64,000 nt of DNA, taken from assembly GCA_902615855.1 (NCBI GenBank), contig CACMQN010000001.1, positions 1 through 64,000 of the forward strand, read 5' to 3'. The stretch is from an uncultured Candidatus Actinomarina sp. GTDB taxonomy: Bacteria; Actinomycetota; Acidimicrobiia; Actinomarinales; Actinomarinaceae. Within the stretch, counting starts at the first letter, position 1; every line of letters starts with the position of its first letter. The position numbers and the translations under genes were made by a program. This document shows, one piece after another, positions 35,131-44,170 of the stretch. Under the pieces are notes generated by a model that was not told the origin of the DNA, searched no databases, and saw only the letters and a list, made by a program, of their open reading frames with translations.

Positions 35131-36653
35131 ATTTAATCTCTATCGCCACATTAGTGATAATAACTATTGGAACATGTTTCAATGCAATTAGATGGCAGAG
35201 AATTGCTCAAAGAGAGCATTACATACCAGGTTATATAACCAAATTTTATTTTAGATGGGTGAGGTCAAGGGGATTAAATAGGTTCATTCTATTTATTACA
35301 TTAATTCTTTGTATCATCTCTCTTTTCTTTGCTTATATTCCAATAATCATTTCAGTTATCAATATTTACACACCAGTTGGATTGTCATTAAAGTCAAGAA
35401 CTAGCAAAGTTGATAAAACAGAAAGACTTAATAGGGTCACATATTGTTATTACTTTCTTGTAGTTTTAGTGTCTATTTTTTCATACACCTTAGGGTATGG
35501 CTATTTTCTTGCATTAGCTGCAAATATGTTCTCTTACTTTATTTTTGATCAAGCACTTAGGCTTATGTTTAATTATGAAAAAAATAAATCCAGACCGTTC
35601 ATTAATGATGCTTCAAAAAAACTGAACTCTAACGCAATTCCTGTAATAGGAATCACAGGTTCATATTCAAAAACAACAACAAAAAATGTTCTTGCCAAGA
35701 TTCTTGATGAATCAAATAATGTTTTTGTAACTCCAGAAAGTTATAACAATCGCTTAGGAATAGCAAAAGCAATAAATGAAGGATTTAATGACGATCATGA
35801 ACTAGCAATTATTGAAATGGGAACATATTCAAATGGGGAAATACGTGAAATTTGTTCATGGGTTAGGCCACATGTATCCGTTATAACCGGAATTGCTCCA
35901 GTTCATTTGGAGAGAATGAAATCTTTAGAAAATATTCTTGATGCTAAGTCTGAAATAGTAGAACTTGCCGGTTCGGTGGTAATCAATGGTGATGACGAAA
36001 TGCTATTGAATGAAGCAAGGCTTTGGACAAATCAGAAAAATGTTTACGATTGCTCAATTACTTCCAGAGAAGCAACTGTCTGCGTAGAGTATCAAAATGG
36101 TAAGCACGATATTTATGTTGCAAATAATCTACTGGGTTCTGTTAACGGTCCTAAGCTTTTACAACTATCAATATCCCTCTCTATAGGGGTCATGCTCGCA
36201 TTAGATTTGGATGTGAGAAAGTACTTAAATAAATTAGATTCTCTTGATAAATCTAAACATCGTCAAAACATTTTGAAAAGTGACTTGGGCCACACAATTA
36301 TTGATAATTCATTTAACTCCAATCCTATGGGAATTGAATATAGTTTAGAGACTCTACAGGAGCTTGGATCAGAAGAATCTGTACGTTATCTTGTCACCCC
36401 TGGCATGGTCGAACTTGGTAGTGATCAGTATGCTATAAATTATGCTTTTGCGTTAGAGGCTAGTCAAGTAGTTGATAAGGCACTCATTGTTGGTAAAACA
36501 AATAAAAATTCATTGAAAGCGGGATTTCAAGAAAATGATGTTGATTACGAAATATTTCAAAACAGGGACGAAGCTGTAAATTATCTTAATTCTGTTGTAA
36601 AATCAGAAGATATTGTTTTATATGAGAATGATCTTCCAGACCACTATCCTTAA
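35127..36653 (+). CDS. Membrane-anchored Mur ligase (MurF-like)
   Basis: A 508-residue protein. The first 150 residues hold about four membrane helices. A Mur ligase unit follows: P-loop G-S-Y-S-K-T-T-T-K (about residue 178; canonical G-x-x-G-K-T), then N-N-R-L-G and I-E-M-G-T-Y-S for the central domain, and D-N-S-F-N-S-N-P in the C-terminal domain, the last matching MurF's D-x-Y-N-A-N-P. It should couple an amino acid or dipeptide to a nucleotide- or lipid-linked acceptor at the membrane. The next gene is a D-Ala-D-Ala ligase homologue. A conventional soluble MurF has no such anchor, so the exact acceptor is open. Confidence 0.82.
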   Translation: MNLISIATLVIITIGTCFNAIRWQRIAQREHYIPGYITKFYFRWVRSRGLNRFILFITLILCIISLFFAYIPIIISVINIYTPVGLSLKSRTSKVDKTERLNRVTYCYYFLVVLVSIFSYTLGYGYFLALAANMFSYFIFDQALRLMFNYEKNKSRPFINDASKKLNSNAIPVIGITGSYSKTTTKNVLAKILDESNNVFVTPESYNNRLGIAKAINEGFNDDHELAIIEMGTYSNGEIREICSWVRPHVSVITGIAPVHLERMKSLENILDAKSEIVELAGSVVINGDDEMLLNEARLWTNQKNVYDCSITSREATVCVEYQNGKHDIYVANNLLGSVNGPKLLQLSISLSIGVMLALDLDVRKYLNKLDSLDKSKHRQNILKSDLGHTIIDNSFNSNPMGIEYSLETLQELGSEESVRYLVTPGMVELGSDQYAINYAFALEASQVVDKALIVGKTNKNSLKAGFQENDVDYEIFQNRDEAVNYLNSVVKSEDIVLYENDLPDHYP

Positions 36654-36658
36654 ATTAA

Positions 36659-37735
36659 ATGAGTAAAACAATTGGAGTAGTATTCGGAGGGCCTTCTCCC
36701 GAACATGATATATCAATACTCACCGGTTTACAAAGCGTTCGAATCTTATCAAAAAAGTATGATGTAATCGCTTTATATTGGTCAAAAAATAATGAATGGT
36801 ATTTAGTTGATAATGAATACGAATCTGTAGATTTTTTGACTAATAAAAAAATATATAAAAACAAACTTGAGATGAAATTTAACGATGATCCAGGATTTTA
36901 TCAAAAAAGAAAAAAATTACACTTTGATGTCCTAATCAATGCTTGTCATGGAGGGCCTGGAGAGGATGGCTCACTTCAGTCATTACTAAACATATTTCGA
37001 ATTAAATATACTGGCCCAGATCAGATTTCTGCTCAAATTTGCATGGATAAGTATGCTTTTTATACCGTAATGAAAGAAAATGGGTTGCCTGTTATAGAAA
37101 AAAAGTTAGTGAATACTGAAGAAATGAATATTGATGGAAATTATGTATTAAAACCACGATTTGGAGGATCTTCTATTGGAGTTGAGTTAATAAATGATGC
37201 ACCAACCGTTCAAAAACTAATAACGAATTCTGATTTATATTCACAAGGGGCTGTTATTGAAAAGTATTTAGAAAATTCAATAGATTTACTTATAGGAGTT
37301 AGAAGTTTTCCAGATTTTGATGTATCTGAGATTGAAAAACCACTTAAAAACGAAACACTCTTTTCGTATACTGACAAATATTTGGAAAACGGGGGACTGG
37401 AAGGTTCAAAAAGAGAATTACCAGCAAATCTAAACGAACAAATAGAAAAAAAATTGATTGAGATGGTCAATAAAATAAATCAAATAATTCCTACCCGAGG
37501 GATATACAGATATGATTTTCTATTGCATGAAAATGAATTGTATATAAATGAAATAAATACAATTCCTGGAAGCCATGCGCTTTATTTATGGAAGAATTTA
37601 AATAGTTCAAAATTTGAACTTTTAGACTCCATGATTGACGAAGCATTGTCTAGACAAGTTGATAATTGGTCACTTACTGGTTCCGATGGGATTGCATTAA
37701 AAAGTGCAAAAGATATTGCATCAAAGCTTGGATAA
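36659..37735 (+). CDS. ddl: D-alanine-D-alanine ligase family enzyme
   Basis: A 358-residue ATP-grasp ligase. The N-terminus G-G-P-S-P-E-H-D-I-S corresponds to the Ddl G-G-x-S-x-E-H-x-V-S. The ATP-grasp body shows H-G-G-P-G-E-D-G, K-P-R-F-G-G-S-S-I-G-V, Y-R-Y-D-F and I-N-E-I-N-T-I-P-G. It should make D-Ala-D-Ala, or a D-Ala-D-X variant, for the Mur ligase encoded just upstream. There is a five-base gap between the two genes. Confidence 0.85.
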   Translation: MSKTIGVVFGGPSPEHDISILTGLQSVRILSKKYDVIALYWSKNNEWYLVDNEYESVDFLTNKKIYKNKLEMKFNDDPGFYQKRKKLHFDVLINACHGGPGEDGSLQSLLNIFRIKYTGPDQISAQICMDKYAFYTVMKENGLPVIEKKLVNTEEMNIDGNYVLKPRFGGSSIGVELINDAPTVQKLITNSDLYSQGAVIEKYLENSIDLLIGVRSFPDFDVSEIEKPLKNETLFSYTDKYLENGGLEGSKRELPANLNEQIEKKLIEMVNKINQIIPTRGIYRYDFLLHENELYINEINTIPGSHALYLWKNLNSSKFELLDSMIDEALSRQVDNWSLTGSDGIALKSAKDIASKLG

Positions 37736-37738
37736 ATC

Positions 37739-38371
37739 ATGTACGGAATTTACTGGGATTGTGATGGAACAATTATGGATACGGAAAAATCATATGCTTA
37801 TGCATGGAAAGATTTTTTATCTAGTAAAGGATTAGATTTACCGATTGAAGAGTTTGATAAATTCGTTGGGATAGATGACAGAATCGTACATTCTGAATTC
37901 TCTCAGATTGTTGAACTTGATAATTTCGATTCGACTATGGATGAGCTTCATAAAATTATGAGAGTAGAGTTTTCTGAAAAGATACTCTTTAAGGATTCCT
38001 TGCAATGCTTGAAAGAATTCCATGGAGATGTCTTGCAAGCTTGTGTATCAGCATCTCCAAAAGAGGTTCTAAACTTTAAATTACAAGATGCAAAAATTAT
38101 TAACTATTTCGATCATGTCATAGGTGGAAATGAAGTTTCGAACAACAAGCCTAGCCCTGACATATATTTAAAAGCTATCGATGAATTAGGTACTACAAAA
38201 AATATTATCGTTGAAGATAGCCCAACTGGTATTTTGTCTGGAAAAGAATCGAATAATTTTGTTATCGCTGTAGATAGAGGTATGTTTCCCAAAGATCAAC
38301 TTTCTAACGCTGATTTAATAGTCAATGAATTAGATCCAATTAATATTAGATCATTACTTCAAACCCTTTAA
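37739..38371 (+). CDS. HAD-superfamily phosphatase/phosphomutase (subfamily IA)
   Basis: A 210-residue protein with HAD motif I W-D-C-D-G-T-I-M-D-T-E, motif II S-A-S-P-K, a Lys in N-N-K-P-S-P-D and motif IV V-E-D-S-P-T-G-I-L-S-G. The D-T-E cap start and V-E-D-S resemble beta-phosphoglucomutase and related sugar phosphatases. It starts three bases after the Ddl gene. The substrate is unknown. Confidence 0.85.
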   Translation: MYGIYWDCDGTIMDTEKSYAYAWKDFLSSKGLDLPIEEFDKFVGIDDRIVHSEFSQIVELDNFDSTMDELHKIMRVEFSEKILFKDSLQCLKEFHGDVLQACVSASPKEVLNFKLQDAKIINYFDHVIGGNEVSNNKPSPDIYLKAIDELGTTKNIIVEDSPTGILSGKESNNFVIAVDRGMFPKDQLSNADLIVNELDPINIRSLLQTL

Positions 38372-38424
38372 TAATTGACTTTTTTAAAAATAAATTACAA
38401 AACTGACTTAGGCGCAATATGTGA

Positions 38425-38847
38425 CTAAGTTATTTCTAATAACATTACTGGAATTTTTCTACTTGTTCTGTTTTGGTACTGTTCATATACCCCATTATTC
38501 ATAAAGTCCATTTTTTTCCACCATTCAGTTCTTTCAAGATCAAAAATTTCTCTAGCAACCACATTAAATCTTTCTCTACCTATTTGAATTTTTGCTTCCG
38601 GATTGTTTTTAAGATTGTGGTACCAACCTGGATTTTTAGGATTACCACCTTTAGAAGCTACTATACAAATTAAATTATCCTCTTTTAAATACACAAGGAC
38701 GTTTTTACGCAATTTTCCGGTTTTCCCTCCTATACTTTCAAGAATTAAACAAGGTCTGTCAGATATTGTTTTCCCAAATCTTCCGTTTGAATAGATATAA
38801 ATATAGTTATGTAAAAACAGTACAAAAAATATAATTTTTCTTCTCAT
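38425..38847 (-). CDS. Deazaflavin (F420)-dependent nitroreductase-family protein (DDN/DUF385)
   Basis: About 140 residues. After a hydrophobic N-terminal segment the body has the DDN pattern R-P-C-L-I-L-E-S-I-G-G-K-T-G-K-L-R, I-V-A-S-K-G-G-N-P-K-N-P-G-W-Y-H-N-L and E-A-K-I-Q-I-G. These small split-barrel proteins bind F420H2 in mycobacteria and reduce quinones or nitro compounds. The ATG at 38847 overlaps the stop of the photolyase-like gene (ATGA); an in-frame codon at 38874 would lie inside that gene. Confidence 0.82.
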   Translation of the reverse strand: MRRKIIFFVLFLHNYIYIYSNGRFGKTISDRPCLILESIGGKTGKLRKNVLVYLKEDNLICIVASKGGNPKNPGWYHNLKNNPEAKIQIGRERFNVVAREIFDLERTEWWKKMDFMNNGVYEQYQNRTSRKIPVMLLEIT

Positions 38848-40040
38848 TGAGCTAATTTTGTTTTTTTTCTCCACGAAGAGAAACTTCTTGGATAAAAATT
38901 GATTGGATCAACTAATCTATTTGCCGGAAACTCCATGGAGGGTTTTATTTGTTGGGTAATCCTTTTATATTTTGGTACTGGTGCAAATGTAGATGCGTAA
39001 TTTATTCCAGATAATACATCTAGTGGATTGTCTAGATAAACTTTAAGCTCTCTTTTTTCATTAATCTCCTTCAAAGTATCCAGTAAAAAAATAATTCTCT
39101 TTGTTGATAAATCTAAACTTTTTAACAACTTTATATCGAATATAAACACTACTGGAAGGTCTAAAAGATTATTTAAAGCAGGATCTTCATCACCAAGTGA
39201 TTCTCCATTAATCCATACAAAATCAGGTTTTTGGTCAGAAGTTAATACTGTTTTTGGTCCAAAATTTTTTTCTATGTTTAAATCTACCTTGATATCTTTA
39301 CTAGAGATACTCATTATTTCTGGCCAATTTTCAATAGGACAATTATTTATCAATTCACATTCTTTACATATTTTTGGTGCTCTTTTATTGACTTGGAATT
39401 TTGAAAACCCATATATCTTCCCTGTTTGAGAACCCATTACCCAGTGCCAACCTAATCTATTTGCAAATCTAGAGCCATCTACAAGATGCTTGTACATGTA
39501 ATTTTCACTTTCTAGCCAGTACTGATTTGTTCTAAACATCTGATGTGATGAGTACCACATTCTGGTTTGATTTACCATATAACCTGTTGATTCGAGTTCT
39601 TGTTCTACCGTTGAAATACAGTTCATTTTGTCGTTTTCAACTACTTCGTTAGGATCATTTTGAACATAAAAATTTAGAAATTCCCTGTTCTGGCTTCCAA
39701 CAATGGCATATAGATGCCTAGAAAATTCTTGCCATAAAAGCTCATCTCTAAATTTAGTTTTGTCTTGGTATTCAAACGAATCTACGTGTTTCCATACTTC
39801 TTTAAGACTCAAAAGACCATGTCTTATATATGGTGATAAGTATGAAGACCCCCTTTTTTCAGTTGGATATACATTGTTTCTCTTTTTTGCATAACCATTA
39901 ATGTCCAAATTGTTAAGGGCTTTATCTGCAAATGACTGTCCACCTTTGAATATAGACTCCTGGTAATCATCACAAGTAATATCTTTAAAGAATGTATTTA
40001 CTATTTCTTCGTTACTTGATTTTAAATTAATTTCAGGCAT
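38844..40040 (-). CDS. Photolyase/cryptochrome-family protein with permuted domain order
   Basis: A 398-residue protein. Residues about 60-225 carry the FAD-binding helical domain of photolyases: S-S-Y-L-S-P-Y-I-R-H-G-L-L-S, E-L-L-W-Q-E-F-S-R, G-Y-M-V-N-Q-T-R-M and S-R-F-A-N-R-L-G-W-H-W-V-M-G. A C-x-x-C-x5-C cluster (225, 228, 234) follows. Residues about 272-345 then look like the alpha/beta domain that normally opens photolyases (V-W-I-N-G-E-S-L-G-D-E-D-P-A-L, then V-F-I-F-D and R-I-I-F-L-L-D-T-L). Light-driven DNA repair or light sensing is plausible. It is co-transcribed with an F420-type reductase. Confidence 0.78.
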   Translation of the reverse strand: MPEINLKSSNEEIVNTFFKDITCDDYQESIFKGGQSFADKALNNLDINGYAKKRNNVYPTEKRGSSYLSPYIRHGLLSLKEVWKHVDSFEYQDKTKFRDELLWQEFSRHLYAIVGSQNREFLNFYVQNDPNEVVENDKMNCISTVEQELESTGYMVNQTRMWYSSHQMFRTNQYWLESENYMYKHLVDGSRFANRLGWHWVMGSQTGKIYGFSKFQVNKRAPKICKECELINNCPIENWPEIMSISSKDIKVDLNIEKNFGPKTVLTSDQKPDFVWINGESLGDEDPALNNLLDLPVVFIFDIKLLKSLDLSTKRIIFLLDTLKEINEKRELKVYLDNPLDVLSGINYASTFAPVPKYKRITQQIKPSMEFPANRLVDPINFYPRSFSSWRKKTKLAQ

Positions 40041-40047
40041 CTAAAAA

Positions 40048-40263
40048 TTAATAGTCACCTTGACCAATTTTGACGTTTGAAATGATTTTGATATCCTCTT
40101 CTTCCACGATATCGAAATTTATTCTTTGTCCTTGTCTTAAAGTTCTAAATATAGAACCTTTTAGCGAACCGGCTTTTAAATAAACTTCTGATTTATCACT
40201 GTCTAGAACTACAATACCGTTTCCTGAATTAGGATCGTACGACTTTACAACCCCCTGAGCCAT
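40048..40263 (-). CDS. Cold-shock-domain-like small protein
   Basis: A 71-residue protein fitting a single OB-fold cold-shock domain: G-V-V-K-S-Y-D ... G-N-G-I-V-V-L-D in place of the usual G-x-V-K-W-F ... K-G-F-G-F-I. The aromatic RNA-binding residues are mostly lost, so nucleic-acid binding may be weak or different. The ATG overlaps the L28 stop by one base, so it is coupled to ribosomal protein synthesis. Confidence 0.7.
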   Translation of the reverse strand: MAQGVVKSYDPNSGNGIVVLDSDKSEVYLKAGSLKGSIFRTLRQGQRINFDIVEEEDIKIISNVKIGQGDY

Positions 40264-40499
40264 TAAACTTTTTCGCCTCTTTGTCTAATATCTCTTACAA
40301 CAGATTCAATACCACGCTTGTCGATGATTTTATTTCCTTTTGTACTAACTTTTAACTTTATCCATCTTTTTTCGCTAGGTAGCCAATATTTTTTAGTTTG
40401 AATATTTGGTTTAAACCATCGTGGGTTTCTTTTATGAGAAAAGGAAACATGTTTTCCTGACCTCGGCACTCTACCTGTAACTTGACATCTGTTAGCCAT
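40263..40499 (-). CDS. rpmB: 50S ribosomal protein L28
   Basis: A 78-residue ribosomal protein: M-A-N-R-C-Q-V-T-G at the start, S-H-K-R-N-P-R-W-F-K-P-N-I-Q in the middle and V-S-T-K-G-N-K-I-I-D-K-R-G towards the end. Only one Cys is present, so the zinc-ribbon form is lacking. The ATG at 40499 has GAGGG upstream; an in-frame codon at 40520 lacks support. Divergent from recG. Confidence 0.92.
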   Translation of the reverse strand: MANRCQVTGRVPRSGKHVSFSHKRNPRWFKPNIQTKKYWLPSEKRWIKLKVSTKGNKIIDKRGIESVVRDIRQRGEKV

Positions 40500-40592
40500 A
40501 TAATTCCCTCTAAAATACAAGTATAACTATAACTTGTCTAATAATTATTAGGTACTTTGATTTTAAATCTTTTTAGGTATTGTTTGATTGTG

Positions 40593-42683
40593 ATGGAGAG
40601 AAGTTTAAGTTATTTAAGTAAAATTTCAGTTTCTGAATTGAAAGGCTTCGGTGAAAAAAGAATTAATTCTCTGAAGAAGCATGGAATAAATTCAGTTACA
40701 GATCTGATAAGAATCTTTCCGAGAAAACATTACGACCGATCAAAAATTATGAACTTGAGCGAAGTTCCGCCAAATATTGAAAAAGAGATAACTATATTTG
40801 GCAAAATTACTGATATTTCAGTTTTTACAACAAAGACAAGACTCAGAATTACTACTTTAACTATTAATGACGAAACCGGAATTGCAAGAGCAAAATGGTT
40901 TGGTCCTCAATACATAGAAAGTAGATTTAAAAAAGATGATATTGTTGCGGTTGCAGGTGTTCCTGATGTTAAAAAAACAGGAACTGTAGAATTTAAGAAT
41001 CCAGTTATTGAGTCTTTTTCATCCGAGCAAGACCTTTCAGAGACAGGTTCATTCATATCTTTTTATCCAAAAATTGATGGTGTACCAAACAAAGTATTAA
41101 GAAGTGGTATTAAACAAGCTTTGGAAAGAATTCCAGAATTAAAGGATATTATCCCAGATAAAGATAGAAACAAATTTTCTCTTTATACAAGATTAGACAG
41201 TTATCAGAAAATCCATTTCCCTGAAAGTTTTGAGGAATATAAATTAGCAAAAAAACGACTTGCTTTTGATGAATTCATATATTTACAAAGCTTATTTAGT
41301 CATTCAAAAGACATTTATAAAACAGAACAAAAATCTTATTTAATGAAAATAGATTCCTCATTATTAAGGAGTTTTGAATCAAAAATACCATTTTCACTAA
41401 CCAATTCGCAAAAAAGTTGTATTAAGGAAATTTTTGAAGATCTTAGTAGCAATTACCCAATGAAAAGATTGCTTCAAGGCGATGTTGGATCTGGTAAAAC
41501 TATTGTTGCTGCAGCTGGTGTCTATGCAGCTATTGAGAATGGAAAGCAAGTTGCATTAATGGCCCCAACGGAAGTTTTAGCAGAACAGCATTTAAATTCT
41601 TTTGAAAAGTATCTGAATTTTTTTGATATAGATATGCATATTTTGACATCATCTGTAAAAGATAGAAAAAGCGTTATGAAAGTAATCGAAAACGGTGACC
41701 CAGCATTGACAATTGGGACACACGCATTAATTCAGGAAAACGTAAAATTTAATAATTTAGGATTGGCAATTATTGATGAACAACAACGGTTCGGAGTAGA
41801 GCAAAGAAAAAAATTAATGATAAGTGATGATTTAACACCGCATCAGTTAGTAATGACTGCAACTCCAATTCCAAGAACAACTGCTCTTGCAATATATGGA
41901 GATCTAGAGCTCTCAATTATTAATGAAATGCCTCCAGGAAGAAAAAAAATTAATTCGAAAGTTCTTGCTGGAGGAAAACGTGAAAGTAATGAAGTTTTTA
42001 ACATTGCACGTGAGCATTTGGAAAAAAAATCACAAATTTTTGTTGTTTGCCCATACATTGAAGAAAGTGAAAATAGTGATATTAAAGCTGCTGAAAAAGT
42101 ATATGAGTTATATAAGTCAGAATTCAACAAATATAATGTCGAGTTACTTCATGGAAAAATGAAAGCCGATGAAAAAGAAAATAAAATGCTAAAAATGAAG
42201 AACGGTGAAATTGACATCATGGTATCAACAGTTGTCATTGAAGTTGGTATTGATATCACAAACGCAACATTGATGATAATTGAAAGTGCCGAAAGATTTG
42301 GTTTAAACCAATTACATCAACTCAGAGGAAGAGTTGGTAGAGGAGATAAACAATCTGAATGTATATTTCATATCACAGAAGGAAAAAGTTTTTCAAAGAT
42401 AACTAAAGATGGGCAGGAAAGGTTAAATGCAATAGAACAAAACGATGATGGTTTTAAATTATCTGAGTTAGATTTACAAATACGTGGAGAAGGTAAAGTT
42501 ACTGGTACATCTCAGTCTGGATTATCAGATCTCAAGATTGCTAATTTACGAACGGATTATGAAATACTTGAAACATCAAAAGAATATTTTTTAAGTATGG
42601 AAGATGAGGAAATTAAATCAGAAATTTTTCTAGAAGCTAACTTGTTGTTTCCCAACTTTGGTAAGACAAAAGATTCTACATGA
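40593..42683 (+). CDS. recG: ATP-dependent DNA helicase RecG
   Basis: About 696 residues. The wedge/OB domain is at about 50-165, followed by superfamily 2 helicase motifs: G-D-V-G-S-G-K-T (Walker A), I-I-D-E-Q-Q-R-F-G (Walker B; RecG usually has DEQH), T-A-T-P-I-P-R-T, and Q-L-R-G-R-V-G-R-G (motif VI). RecG remodels stalled replication forks and Holliday junctions. The ATG at 40593 gives the usual distance to the L-K-G-F-G helix-hairpin motif; an in-frame TTG at 40557 would add 12 residues. It overlaps rsmD by four bases. Confidence 0.95.
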   Translation: MERSLSYLSKISVSELKGFGEKRINSLKKHGINSVTDLIRIFPRKHYDRSKIMNLSEVPPNIEKEITIFGKITDISVFTTKTRLRITTLTINDETGIARAKWFGPQYIESRFKKDDIVAVAGVPDVKKTGTVEFKNPVIESFSSEQDLSETGSFISFYPKIDGVPNKVLRSGIKQALERIPELKDIIPDKDRNKFSLYTRLDSYQKIHFPESFEEYKLAKKRLAFDEFIYLQSLFSHSKDIYKTEQKSYLMKIDSSLLRSFESKIPFSLTNSQKSCIKEIFEDLSSNYPMKRLLQGDVGSGKTIVAAAGVYAAIENGKQVALMAPTEVLAEQHLNSFEKYLNFFDIDMHILTSSVKDRKSVMKVIENGDPALTIGTHALIQENVKFNNLGLAIIDEQQRFGVEQRKKLMISDDLTPHQLVMTATPIPRTTALAIYGDLELSIINEMPPGRKKINSKVLAGGKRESNEVFNIAREHLEKKSQIFVVCPYIEESENSDIKAAEKVYELYKSEFNKYNVELLHGKMKADEKENKMLKMKNGEIDIMVSTVVIEVGIDITNATLMIIESAERFGLNQLHQLRGRVGRGDKQSECIFHITEGKSFSKITKDGQERLNAIEQNDDGFKLSELDLQIRGEGKVTGTSQSGLSDLKIANLRTDYEILETSKEYFLSMEDEEIKSEIFLEANLLFPNFGKTKDST

Positions 42684-43213
42684 GAATTATTGCTGGAAAA
42701 TTTAAGGGGTTGAACATTAAAACTATTAATGATCCATCAACACGACCAATGATGAGTAGGGCTCGGGAAGGCATATTCAATTCACTTCAAAATGACTTTA
42801 ACAATTCTTTGGTACTTGATTTATTTGCGGGTTCTGGATCACTTGGTATTGAAGCGTTAAGCCGAGGTGCAAGCTTTGTTACTTTTGTAGATTCATCGGT
42901 AGATTGTAAAAAAATTATAGATAAAAATTTATCCGATATTGATCAAAATTTTACCGTTCTTGTTTTAAGCGTCCACGATTACATTACTCAATCTGAGAAA
43001 AAATTTGATATTATTTTTTATGATCCACCATTTTCTTTTTTTGTTAATGAGATAAATTCGGACTTAAACACTATACAAAATTTAATGGGAAAAAACTCAA
43101 AACTAATTATCCATAGACATAAAAGTTCAGAGCAATTTGTTTATCCAGAAGGACTAGAATTATATAAGGAAAAAAAATATGGCCAAAGTAATATAACAAT
43201 ATTGAAAAAATGA
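42680..43213 (+). CDS. rsmD: 16S rRNA (guanine966-N2)-methyltransferase
   Basis: A 177-residue class I methyltransferase. It shows R-I-I-A-G-K-F-K-G at the N-terminus, T-R-P-M-M-S-R-A-R-E for substrate positioning, D-L-F-A-G-S-G-S-L-G-I-E-A for SAM, and D-P-P-F as the catalytic motif of N2-guanine methylation. Placement between recG and coaD is the standard actinobacterial order, with four-base overlaps on both sides. Confidence 0.93.
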   Translation: MRIIAGKFKGLNIKTINDPSTRPMMSRAREGIFNSLQNDFNNSLVLDLFAGSGSLGIEALSRGASFVTFVDSSVDCKKIIDKNLSDIDQNFTVLVLSVHDYITQSEKKFDIIFYDPPFSFFVNEINSDLNTIQNLMGKNSKLIIHRHKSSEQFVYPEGLELYKEKKYGQSNITILKK

Positions 43214-43674
43214 AAATTTTAATACCAGGATCATTTGACCCACCAACAAATGGACATATCGATGTCATTAAACGATCATCTAGTGTTTTTGACGAGGTGA
43301 TTGTTGGAGTTGTTGTAAATCCACAAAAAGAGTCAATGTTTGATGTAAGTCAAAGGGAAAATATGTTGATTGAAATTCTAAAAGATTACAAAAATGTGGA
43401 AATTAAAAGTTTTGAAGGATTATTGGTGGATTTTGCTAAACAGATGAATGTAAGTGCAATTGTAAAAGGTTTAAGAGCGATGACAGATTTTGATTATGAA
43501 TTTCAAATGGCTCAAATGAATTTCAATTTGGCAGATTTTGAAACAATATTTATTCCAGCTTCTCCAGAATATGGATATGTTTCAAGCTCAATGGTAAAAG
43601 AAATATTTTCATATGGTGGCGATGTAAATGCACTAGTTCCATCAATTGTCGTTGAGAGACTAAAAGATGTCTAA
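43210..43674 (+). CDS. coaD: Phosphopantetheine adenylyltransferase
   Basis: A 154-residue nucleotidyltransferase catalysing the penultimate step of coenzyme A synthesis. The N-terminal P-G-S-F-D-P-P-T-N-G-H motif includes the ATP-binding T/H-x-G-H, V-K-G-L-R-A lies near residue 85, and the C-terminal S-S-S-M-V-K-E-I is the second signature. Length is normal. Overlaps rsmD by four bases and the next gene by eight. Confidence 0.95.
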   Translation: MKILIPGSFDPPTNGHIDVIKRSSSVFDEVIVGVVVNPQKESMFDVSQRENMLIEILKDYKNVEIKSFEGLLVDFAKQMNVSAIVKGLRAMTDFDYEFQMAQMNFNLADFETIFIPASPEYGYVSSSMVKEIFSYGGDVNALVPSIVVERLKDV

Positions 43675-44170
43675 AGAGGAAATATCTATTGAAGATGTCG
43701 TAAGTGGACAAGTAAAAATGGAATATGTTGATCAACTAGAATTACTAAGAGAAAATTTGTCTTCAAACTCTTTTTTAAACAATAAATCTAATAAAAAAGA
43801 ACTACTTAAGCTTGTTGAAAACTTAATTGATTTAATGCCTGTCGAACTTCGAACTGCAAGATTTATTGTCCGAGAGCAAGAACTCTATTTAAAAAAAGCA
43901 AAGGATGAAGCTGAGGAAATACTTGCTAATGCTGACAAAGAGTCATCAAGATTAATATCAGAATCCTTTGTTTTACAAGAAGCAGTTGTAGAAGCTAATG
44001 CCCTTGTAAAACAAGCTCAACAAGAAGCAATTTTAAATAGAGCTAATGTTGAAGATAAACTTGACACTAAGCTTCAAGAAATTCAATTAAAATTTGATGA
44101 ATTGAATGAAATTATTGAACGCGAGAAATCAAACTTAAGACAACCTAGAAAAATTTCTGATCCTGAATAA
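43667..44170 (+). CDS. Coiled-coil protein of the coaD-DUF177 interval (DivIVA-like)
   Basis: A 167-residue soluble protein. After a short N-terminal region it becomes a long helical coiled coil (about residues 55-158) rich in Glu, Lys, Ala and Gln (A-K-D-E-A-E-E-I-L-A-N-A-D-K-E-S). Actinobacteria carry an equivalent, poorly characterised DivIVA- or AtpF-like gene in this neighbourhood. It may scaffold cell-envelope or division proteins; the function is not known. Confidence 0.75.
   Translation: MSKEEISIEDVVSGQVKMEYVDQLELLRENLSSNSFLNNKSNKKELLKLVENLIDLMPVELRTARFIVREQELYLKKAKDEAEEILANADKESSRLISESFVLQEAVVEANALVKQAQQEAILNRANVEDKLDTKLQEIQLKFDELNEIIEREKSNLRQPRKISDPE

Follow-up and report, generated by a model that had tools for sequence, protein, structure and literature searches.

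The locus and its genes

The window (the whole stretch of 64,000 nucleotides analysed here, from an uncultured Candidatus Actinomarina sp., contig CACMQN010000001.1) carries on its reverse strand a gene for a photolyase-like protein, flanked by two small genes on the same strand. The features discussed below are the following.

38425..38847, reverse strand: F420H2-dependent quinone reductase-like gene, 140 aa (PF04075, E 2.9e-38; TIGR00026; ATGA overlap with the photolyase gene)
38844..40040, reverse strand: inverted-order photolyase-like coding sequence, 398 aa (Pfam, NCBIfam and PDB matches, full-length relatives)
39321..40040, reverse strand: N-terminal FAD/catalytic domain, residues 1-240 (PF03441, PDB photolyase matches, almost all-helical AlphaFold2 model)
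39441..39743, reverse strand: active-site stretch E100-W200, with E100, W103, N157, M161, W175, N194, W198 and W200 (alignment to the A. nidulans enzyme)
39618..39620, reverse strand: Cys141, equivalent to PhrB Cys350 and predicted to be the first [4Fe-4S] ligand (invariant in 41 sequences)
39339..39368, reverse strand: C225-x2-C228-x5-C234, predicted remaining [4Fe-4S] ligands (invariant in 41 sequences; CxxC...CP[FI] motif as in FeS-BCP)
39225..39320, reverse strand: interdomain linker, residues 241-272 (AlphaFold2 secondary structure; poorly conserved in the alignment)
38847..39224, reverse strand: C-terminal alpha/beta domain, residues 273-398, antenna-domain homologue (profile and structure matches)
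40048..40263, reverse strand: small protein with a cold-shock domain, 71 aa, encoded just upstream of the photolyase (PF00313, E 8.5e-7)

The FAD domain comes first

FAD_binding_7 (PF03441), at residues 147-232, is the sole Pfam match above cut-off in the 398 residues. The NCBIfam photolyase models align through their C-terminal FAD parts (model positions from about 205) to residues 34-250, and residues 27-233 align to positions 181-416 of photolyase chains in the PDB. Since it is the C-terminal parts of photolyases that match the early residues of this protein, its catalytic half must stand at the N-terminus. In the AlphaFold2 model (built with 41 related sequences; pLDDT 90.6, pTM 0.91) residues 1-240 are almost all helical, strands and helices alternate from 274 to about 393, and a Foldseek search with the whole model leads to photolyases. 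Residues 1-60, in which a conventional N-terminal alpha/beta domain might have been hidden, are modelled as helices with one isolated bridge residue, and contain no such domain. The order given in the original prediction, FAD domain first and alpha/beta domain last, is therefore confirmed by these matches, by the model and by the profile homology described below; the two domains were rightly recognised but drawn too short, the FAD module (placed at 60-225) extending over about 1-240 and the alpha/beta segment (placed at 272-345) over about 273-398.

The C-terminal domain is a displaced antenna domain

The C-terminal domain and the antenna domain with which ordinary photolyases begin are homologous. 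Comparison by hhalign with conventional N-terminal photolyase domains gives P values of 3.5e-6 (Acidimicrobiia), 2.7e-12 (Deinococcus) and 4.4e-10 (joint), against at least 0.08 for all ten control families, which were taken from neighbouring genes and include the HUP-fold protein CoaD. With a wider sequence set the profile matches class I over 119 columns (P 1.1e-9), in a nearly end-to-end alignment that takes in the helix following the domain (SFSSWRK in the window protein, FTPFWR in conventional photolyases), and it matches the DPRP domain (8e-4) and class II (0.02) far more poorly. Searched against the PDB, the same profile finds its best matches in residues 18-115 of photolyases and cryptochromes. 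Among 397 Actinomycetota genomes it gives 26 strong matches; when both domain profiles are placed on the proteins, FAD precedes alpha/beta in those with strong matches and alpha/beta precedes FAD in the weakly matched conventional photolyases of the same phylum.

It could be argued that we are dealing with an unrelated Rossmann-like cap that merely resembles the antenna domain. Pfam, at its curated cut-off, does not recognise the C-terminal domain of the window protein (hence the public name of such proteins, only "FAD-binding domain-containing protein"), and other HUP-fold proteins (PPAT, USP) are among the Foldseek matches when the last 130 residues are modelled alone. These come after the photolyases, which take the first three places among the PDB matches (5zcw_B, probability 1.00, TM 0.61), no match in this search having an E value below 0.001; the structural resemblance to the photolyase alpha/beta domain that had been expected around residues 260-360 is thus there, together with the profile homology. 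An unrelated cap is difficult to reconcile with homology over 113-119 columns when the control families, HUP-fold CoaD included, are negative, or with a C-terminal profile that retrieves the N-terminal domains of conventional photolyases. It also sits badly with PF00875, which, albeit below its curated cut-off in both cases, matches a Deinococcus AJ005 protein at residues 300-395 (E 7e-4) and, in Deinococcus QL22, the separate alpha/beta ORF (E 2e-4). The idea of a cap is already disfavoured, and we regard it as extremely improbable.

In the alphaproteobacterial and Persicobacter relatives introduced below, the C-terminal profile matches class I weakly (P 0.0018 and 0.0033, respectively), and the Persicobacter domain matches the set of permuted C-terminal domains with a P of 0.00056. 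Judging from these profiles, homology of their C-terminal domains to the antenna domain is likely.

Four cysteines and a predicted iron-sulphur cluster

A C-x-x-C-x5-C cluster at the domain junction, possibly a metal site, had also been proposed. The cluster is real (C225, C228, C234) and has a fourth member, C141, that had been missed; all four are invariant in 41 sequences. The idea of a metal site gains strength, as the four occupy the positions of the FeS-BCP [4Fe-4S] ligands. Relative to the leading His of the His-His pair in the active site, the cysteines of FeS-BCP photolyases from this phylum lie at -15, +73, +76 and +89; relative to V156, those of the window protein lie at -15, +69, +72 and +78. 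In PhrB, which has been studied experimentally, the ligands are C350, C438, C441 and C454 (PMC3204975), and the Fe-S cysteines of RS9916 Phr4 are C169, C254, C257 and C263 (PMC9426592), i.e. steps of 85/3/6 compared with 84/3/6 here. Among 72 aligned proteins the full set is found in 14/14 actinobacterial inverted proteins, 4/4 from Deinococcus and 13/15 of the DPRP type (for the fourth cysteine of Deinococcus and FeS-BCP, which is shifted in the alignment, the printed motif was used), and it is absent from 6/6 alphaproteobacterial and 2/2 Persicobacter proteins, 26 class I-like and five class II ones. Such an all-or-none distribution speaks for a [4Fe-4S] cluster, which we predict for the window protein.

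The same genome encodes a DPRP-type photolyase (locus L128, 676-2352; also L187) that is devoid of the Fe-S cysteines, the inverted protein having kept them. Marine Synechococcus likewise shows a split in these cysteines between Phr2 and Phr4 (PMC9426592).

Trees built from the FAD domain separate the inverted proteins, together with FeS-BCP, from class I and class II with support of 100/95 (87/84 for the FeS-BCP grouping once the cysteine columns are removed), a result to be read with care given the long FeS-BCP branch. FeS-BCP is placed among the inverted proteins, and a topology with one clade of inverted proteins survives the AU test (p-AU 0.457).

Active site and probable lesion

Residues E283, W286, N349 and M353 of the A. 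nidulans enzyme align with E100, W103, N157 and M161, the catalytic Glu, Trp, Asn and Met of the class I CPD type, and W367, N386, W390 and W392 with W175, N194, W198 and W200, N194 being the Asn that faces N5; all eight are invariant in the 41 sequences. At the FAD contacts R287 and D382 of the A. nidulans enzyme, the same set has invariant Q104 and S190 instead. No third Trp is conserved, and where (6-4) enzymes have their His-His pair there is an equally invariant V156-N157. The presence of V-N instead of His-His, with the CPD-type residues kept, favours CPD repair, and the protein is most likely an FAD/[4Fe-4S] CPD photolyase.

In such an enzyme, blue or UV-A light would excite FADH-, which would pass an electron to a pyrimidine dimer (most likely a CPD) bound in the E100/W103/N157/M161/W200 pocket; the dimer would split and the electron would then return. 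Photoreduction of FAD could proceed via W198 and W175, the [4Fe-4S] cluster may have a structural or redox-tuning role, and the C-terminal domain would pack on the FAD domain, with or without an antenna pigment.

This conclusion runs against a published proposal, since (6-4) activity has been predicted from the Fe-S cysteines for the cyanobacterial Phr4 and Phr6 (PMC9426592, mBio 2022), and the window protein could by the same reasoning be an inverted-order (6-4) photolyase. It does have the four FeS-BCP-type cysteines, its FAD domain groups with FeS-BCP (100/95, with the long branch just mentioned), and loss of phr4 affects UV-C survival more than UV-B survival (PMC9426592). The residues at the active site nevertheless argue for CPD: His-His has given way to invariant V156-N157, and the CPD-type E, W, N and M are kept. 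Moreover, SPL is cited as CPD-repairing in PMC9649867, and the genome already has a DPRP-type gene of the prokaryotic (6-4) group. We therefore consider a (6-4) specificity unlikely; the argument against it for the Phr4/Phr6 type may itself be new, and the homology of the displaced antenna domain, like the CPD-type active site, bears on the activity predicted for those proteins.

Besides the DPRP-type photolyase, the genome encodes a class II-like one (TIGR00591, E 1.8e-109, below the cut-off of that model), and the association of the inverted gene with the cold-shock and F420 reductase genes is conserved, so that a cryptochrome-like light sensor with little repair activity, signalling together with these two proteins, could be imagined. 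Every CPD catalytic residue that we tested is invariant, however, no signalling extension is present and the operon is not kept outside Actinomarina. This makes a sensor very unlikely in our opinion, and we retain a CPD photolyase as the most likely function.

Comparison with known inverted photolyases

The original prediction started from the premise that known photolyases always have the antenna domain first. This no longer holds, inverted kinds (NewPHL, SPL, Phr4/Phr5, Phr6) having been published between 2020 and 2022: the likeness to a circular permutation is correct as far as the reversed domain order is concerned, but not as a novelty. A literature search for "circular permutation" or "circularly permuted" photolyases gave nothing relevant, the known cases being worded as "inverted" or "reverse domain order".

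For Phr4/Phr5 of marine Synechococcus and Phr6 of Cyanobium, four Fe-S cysteines are described together with a "reverse domain order" (PMC9426592, mBio 2022); loss of phr4 lowers UV-C survival 20-30 fold, and phr4/phr5 confers UV-C protection on E. coli (PMC9426592). By this description they resemble the window protein in having the FAD domain first, the DNA photolyase domain last and the four cysteines. They differ in phylum, and Phr4/Phr5 in being two ORFs instead of one.

SPL are said to be without an N-terminal alpha/beta domain, and the characterised one, from R. fascians, is reportedly actinobacterial. The window protein differs from this picture in having its alpha/beta domain at the C-terminus. 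Otherwise the two are alike, as far as description goes: SPL (Xu et al. 2021) is cited in PMC9649867 with CPD activity and an FeS cluster (and also in PMC9498864, PMC9178010 and PMC13274461), and from these citations it is a short protein close to CPD photolyases, some members having the cluster.

NewPHL (Emmerich et al. 2020; cited in PMC13274461 and PMC9426592) is credited, together with SPL, with "an inverted domain topology" in PMC13274461, and PMC12083526 gives it an N-terminal catalytic domain, a second, C-terminal domain and an N5-facing Asn. Phr7, which is of the NewPHL type, is without the four-cysteine set, and its "Z-domain" is short (PMC9426592). With NewPHL the window protein shares the inverted order and the N5-facing Asn, but it keeps the four cysteines, and its alpha/beta domain, aligning nearly end to end with class I, is no short Z-domain.

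Two further groups have the conventional order. Like FeS-BCP (PhrB, CryB), the window protein has cysteines equivalent to 350/438/441/454 and a FAD domain that groups with theirs; unlike them, it has no N-terminal DPRP domain (no PF04244 in the Pfam search) and no His-His. With the class I CPD photolyases of E. coli and A. nidulans it shares the catalytic residues, Trp1, Trp2 and an antenna-type alpha/beta domain; it departs from them in its reverse domain order, its Fe-S cysteines and its missing third Trp. The bifunctional PhrSph98 photolyases were set aside, because PMC9649867 presents them as a sister group to class II and their catalytic residues come late in the sequence.

Altogether, we believe (with a probability of about 0.85) that the window protein represents the inverted-topology photolyases in Ca. 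Actinomarina, being of the Fe-S-bearing SPL/Phr4-Phr5/Phr6 type and related to NewPHL, a placement that rests on sequence and model comparison and, for the cyanobacterial and SPL proteins, on their description.

Distribution and evolution

Relatives over the full length are found across Ca. Actinomarina (55-99% identity) and in other Acidimicrobiia (41-45%), including the complete genome of Aquihabitans, and the profile search of the 397 genomes extends the inverted proteins to other Actinomycetota. They are also carried by Deinococcus plasmids, the FAD-first order being kept across Actinomycetota and Deinococcus. The inverted Fe-S photolyase is thus no cyanobacterial curiosity: this spread, which is possibly new, includes some of the smallest free-living marine cells. 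FAD-first proteins that continue for some 170-190 residues beyond the FAD domain and lack the set of four cysteines are found in Persicobacter and in Alphaproteobacteria (Asticcacaulis, Novosphingobium, Niveispirillum, Peteryoungia, Ruegeria); those of Asticcacaulis and Ruegeria fit the description of the NewPHL-type Phr7.

On a plasmid of Deinococcus sp. QL22 (locus L118, 2896-4187) the FAD half and the alpha/beta half are two genes overlapping by four bases. This parallels phr4/phr5 of Synechococcus and is a second case of a split gene, possibly a new one. Another match that looked like a separate C-terminal gene, in genome G058, was rejected because the contig ends there. A Persicobacter plasmid (locus L119, 2758-5524 onward) has a FAD-first gene, a conventional one and a DPRP-type one without Fe-S cysteines in a row.

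The profile proof of alpha/beta homology, possibly new as well, and a CPD-type site beside an FeS-BCP-type cluster bear on the ancestry of the photolyase family that has been claimed for SPL. One may tentatively imagine, although we would not bet on it, that the permuted Fe-S proteins form an evolutionary bridge, combining an FeS-BCP-like catalytic domain, a CPD-type active site and a class I-type antenna domain in reverse order. SPL would then in fact carry the alpha/beta domain at their C-terminus, and the "short" photolyases would be variants in domain order and not an ancestral single-domain form.

Gene neighbourhood and the deazaflavin question

The TGA of the photolyase gene and the ATG of the reductase gene overlap as ATGA (38844-38847), an arrangement shared by 33 of the 35 Actinomarina loci (in the remaining two the start of the reductase was not recovered); the translational coupling to an F420-type reductase that had been proposed is therefore exact and well conserved. 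Nearly all these loci have the order cold-shock protein, photolyase, F420 reductase, each neighbour being found in 34. The hint of a deazaflavin link that had been drawn from this coupling is weak, since the reductase neighbour is confined to Ca. Actinomarina and absent beside the homologues of other Acidimicrobiia, which looks like a local feature. F420 synthesis is present in the genome (CofD was found) and is backed by PMC7771536. The correspondence of F299 and R315 with A. nidulans F35 and R51 was considered as a sign of a deazaflavin antenna and given up, because similar residues seem to occur across several types of antenna domain and do not discriminate between them.

No Rfam element was detected within 36000-44000, and 38300-40700 has no promoter-like excess and no terminator-like site. 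The cold-shock-domain protein is divergent, and its gene sits between a ribosomal protein L28-like gene and the photolyase gene. The homologues in the other Acidimicrobiia are instead accompanied by genes for DUF2256-DUF3253 proteins, an amine-oxidase-like flavoprotein and a flavin monooxygenase; in several of these bacteria the gene immediately upstream of the inverted photolyase encodes the DUF2256-DUF3253 protein, whose function is not assigned (locus L089, 2867-3244, and related loci).
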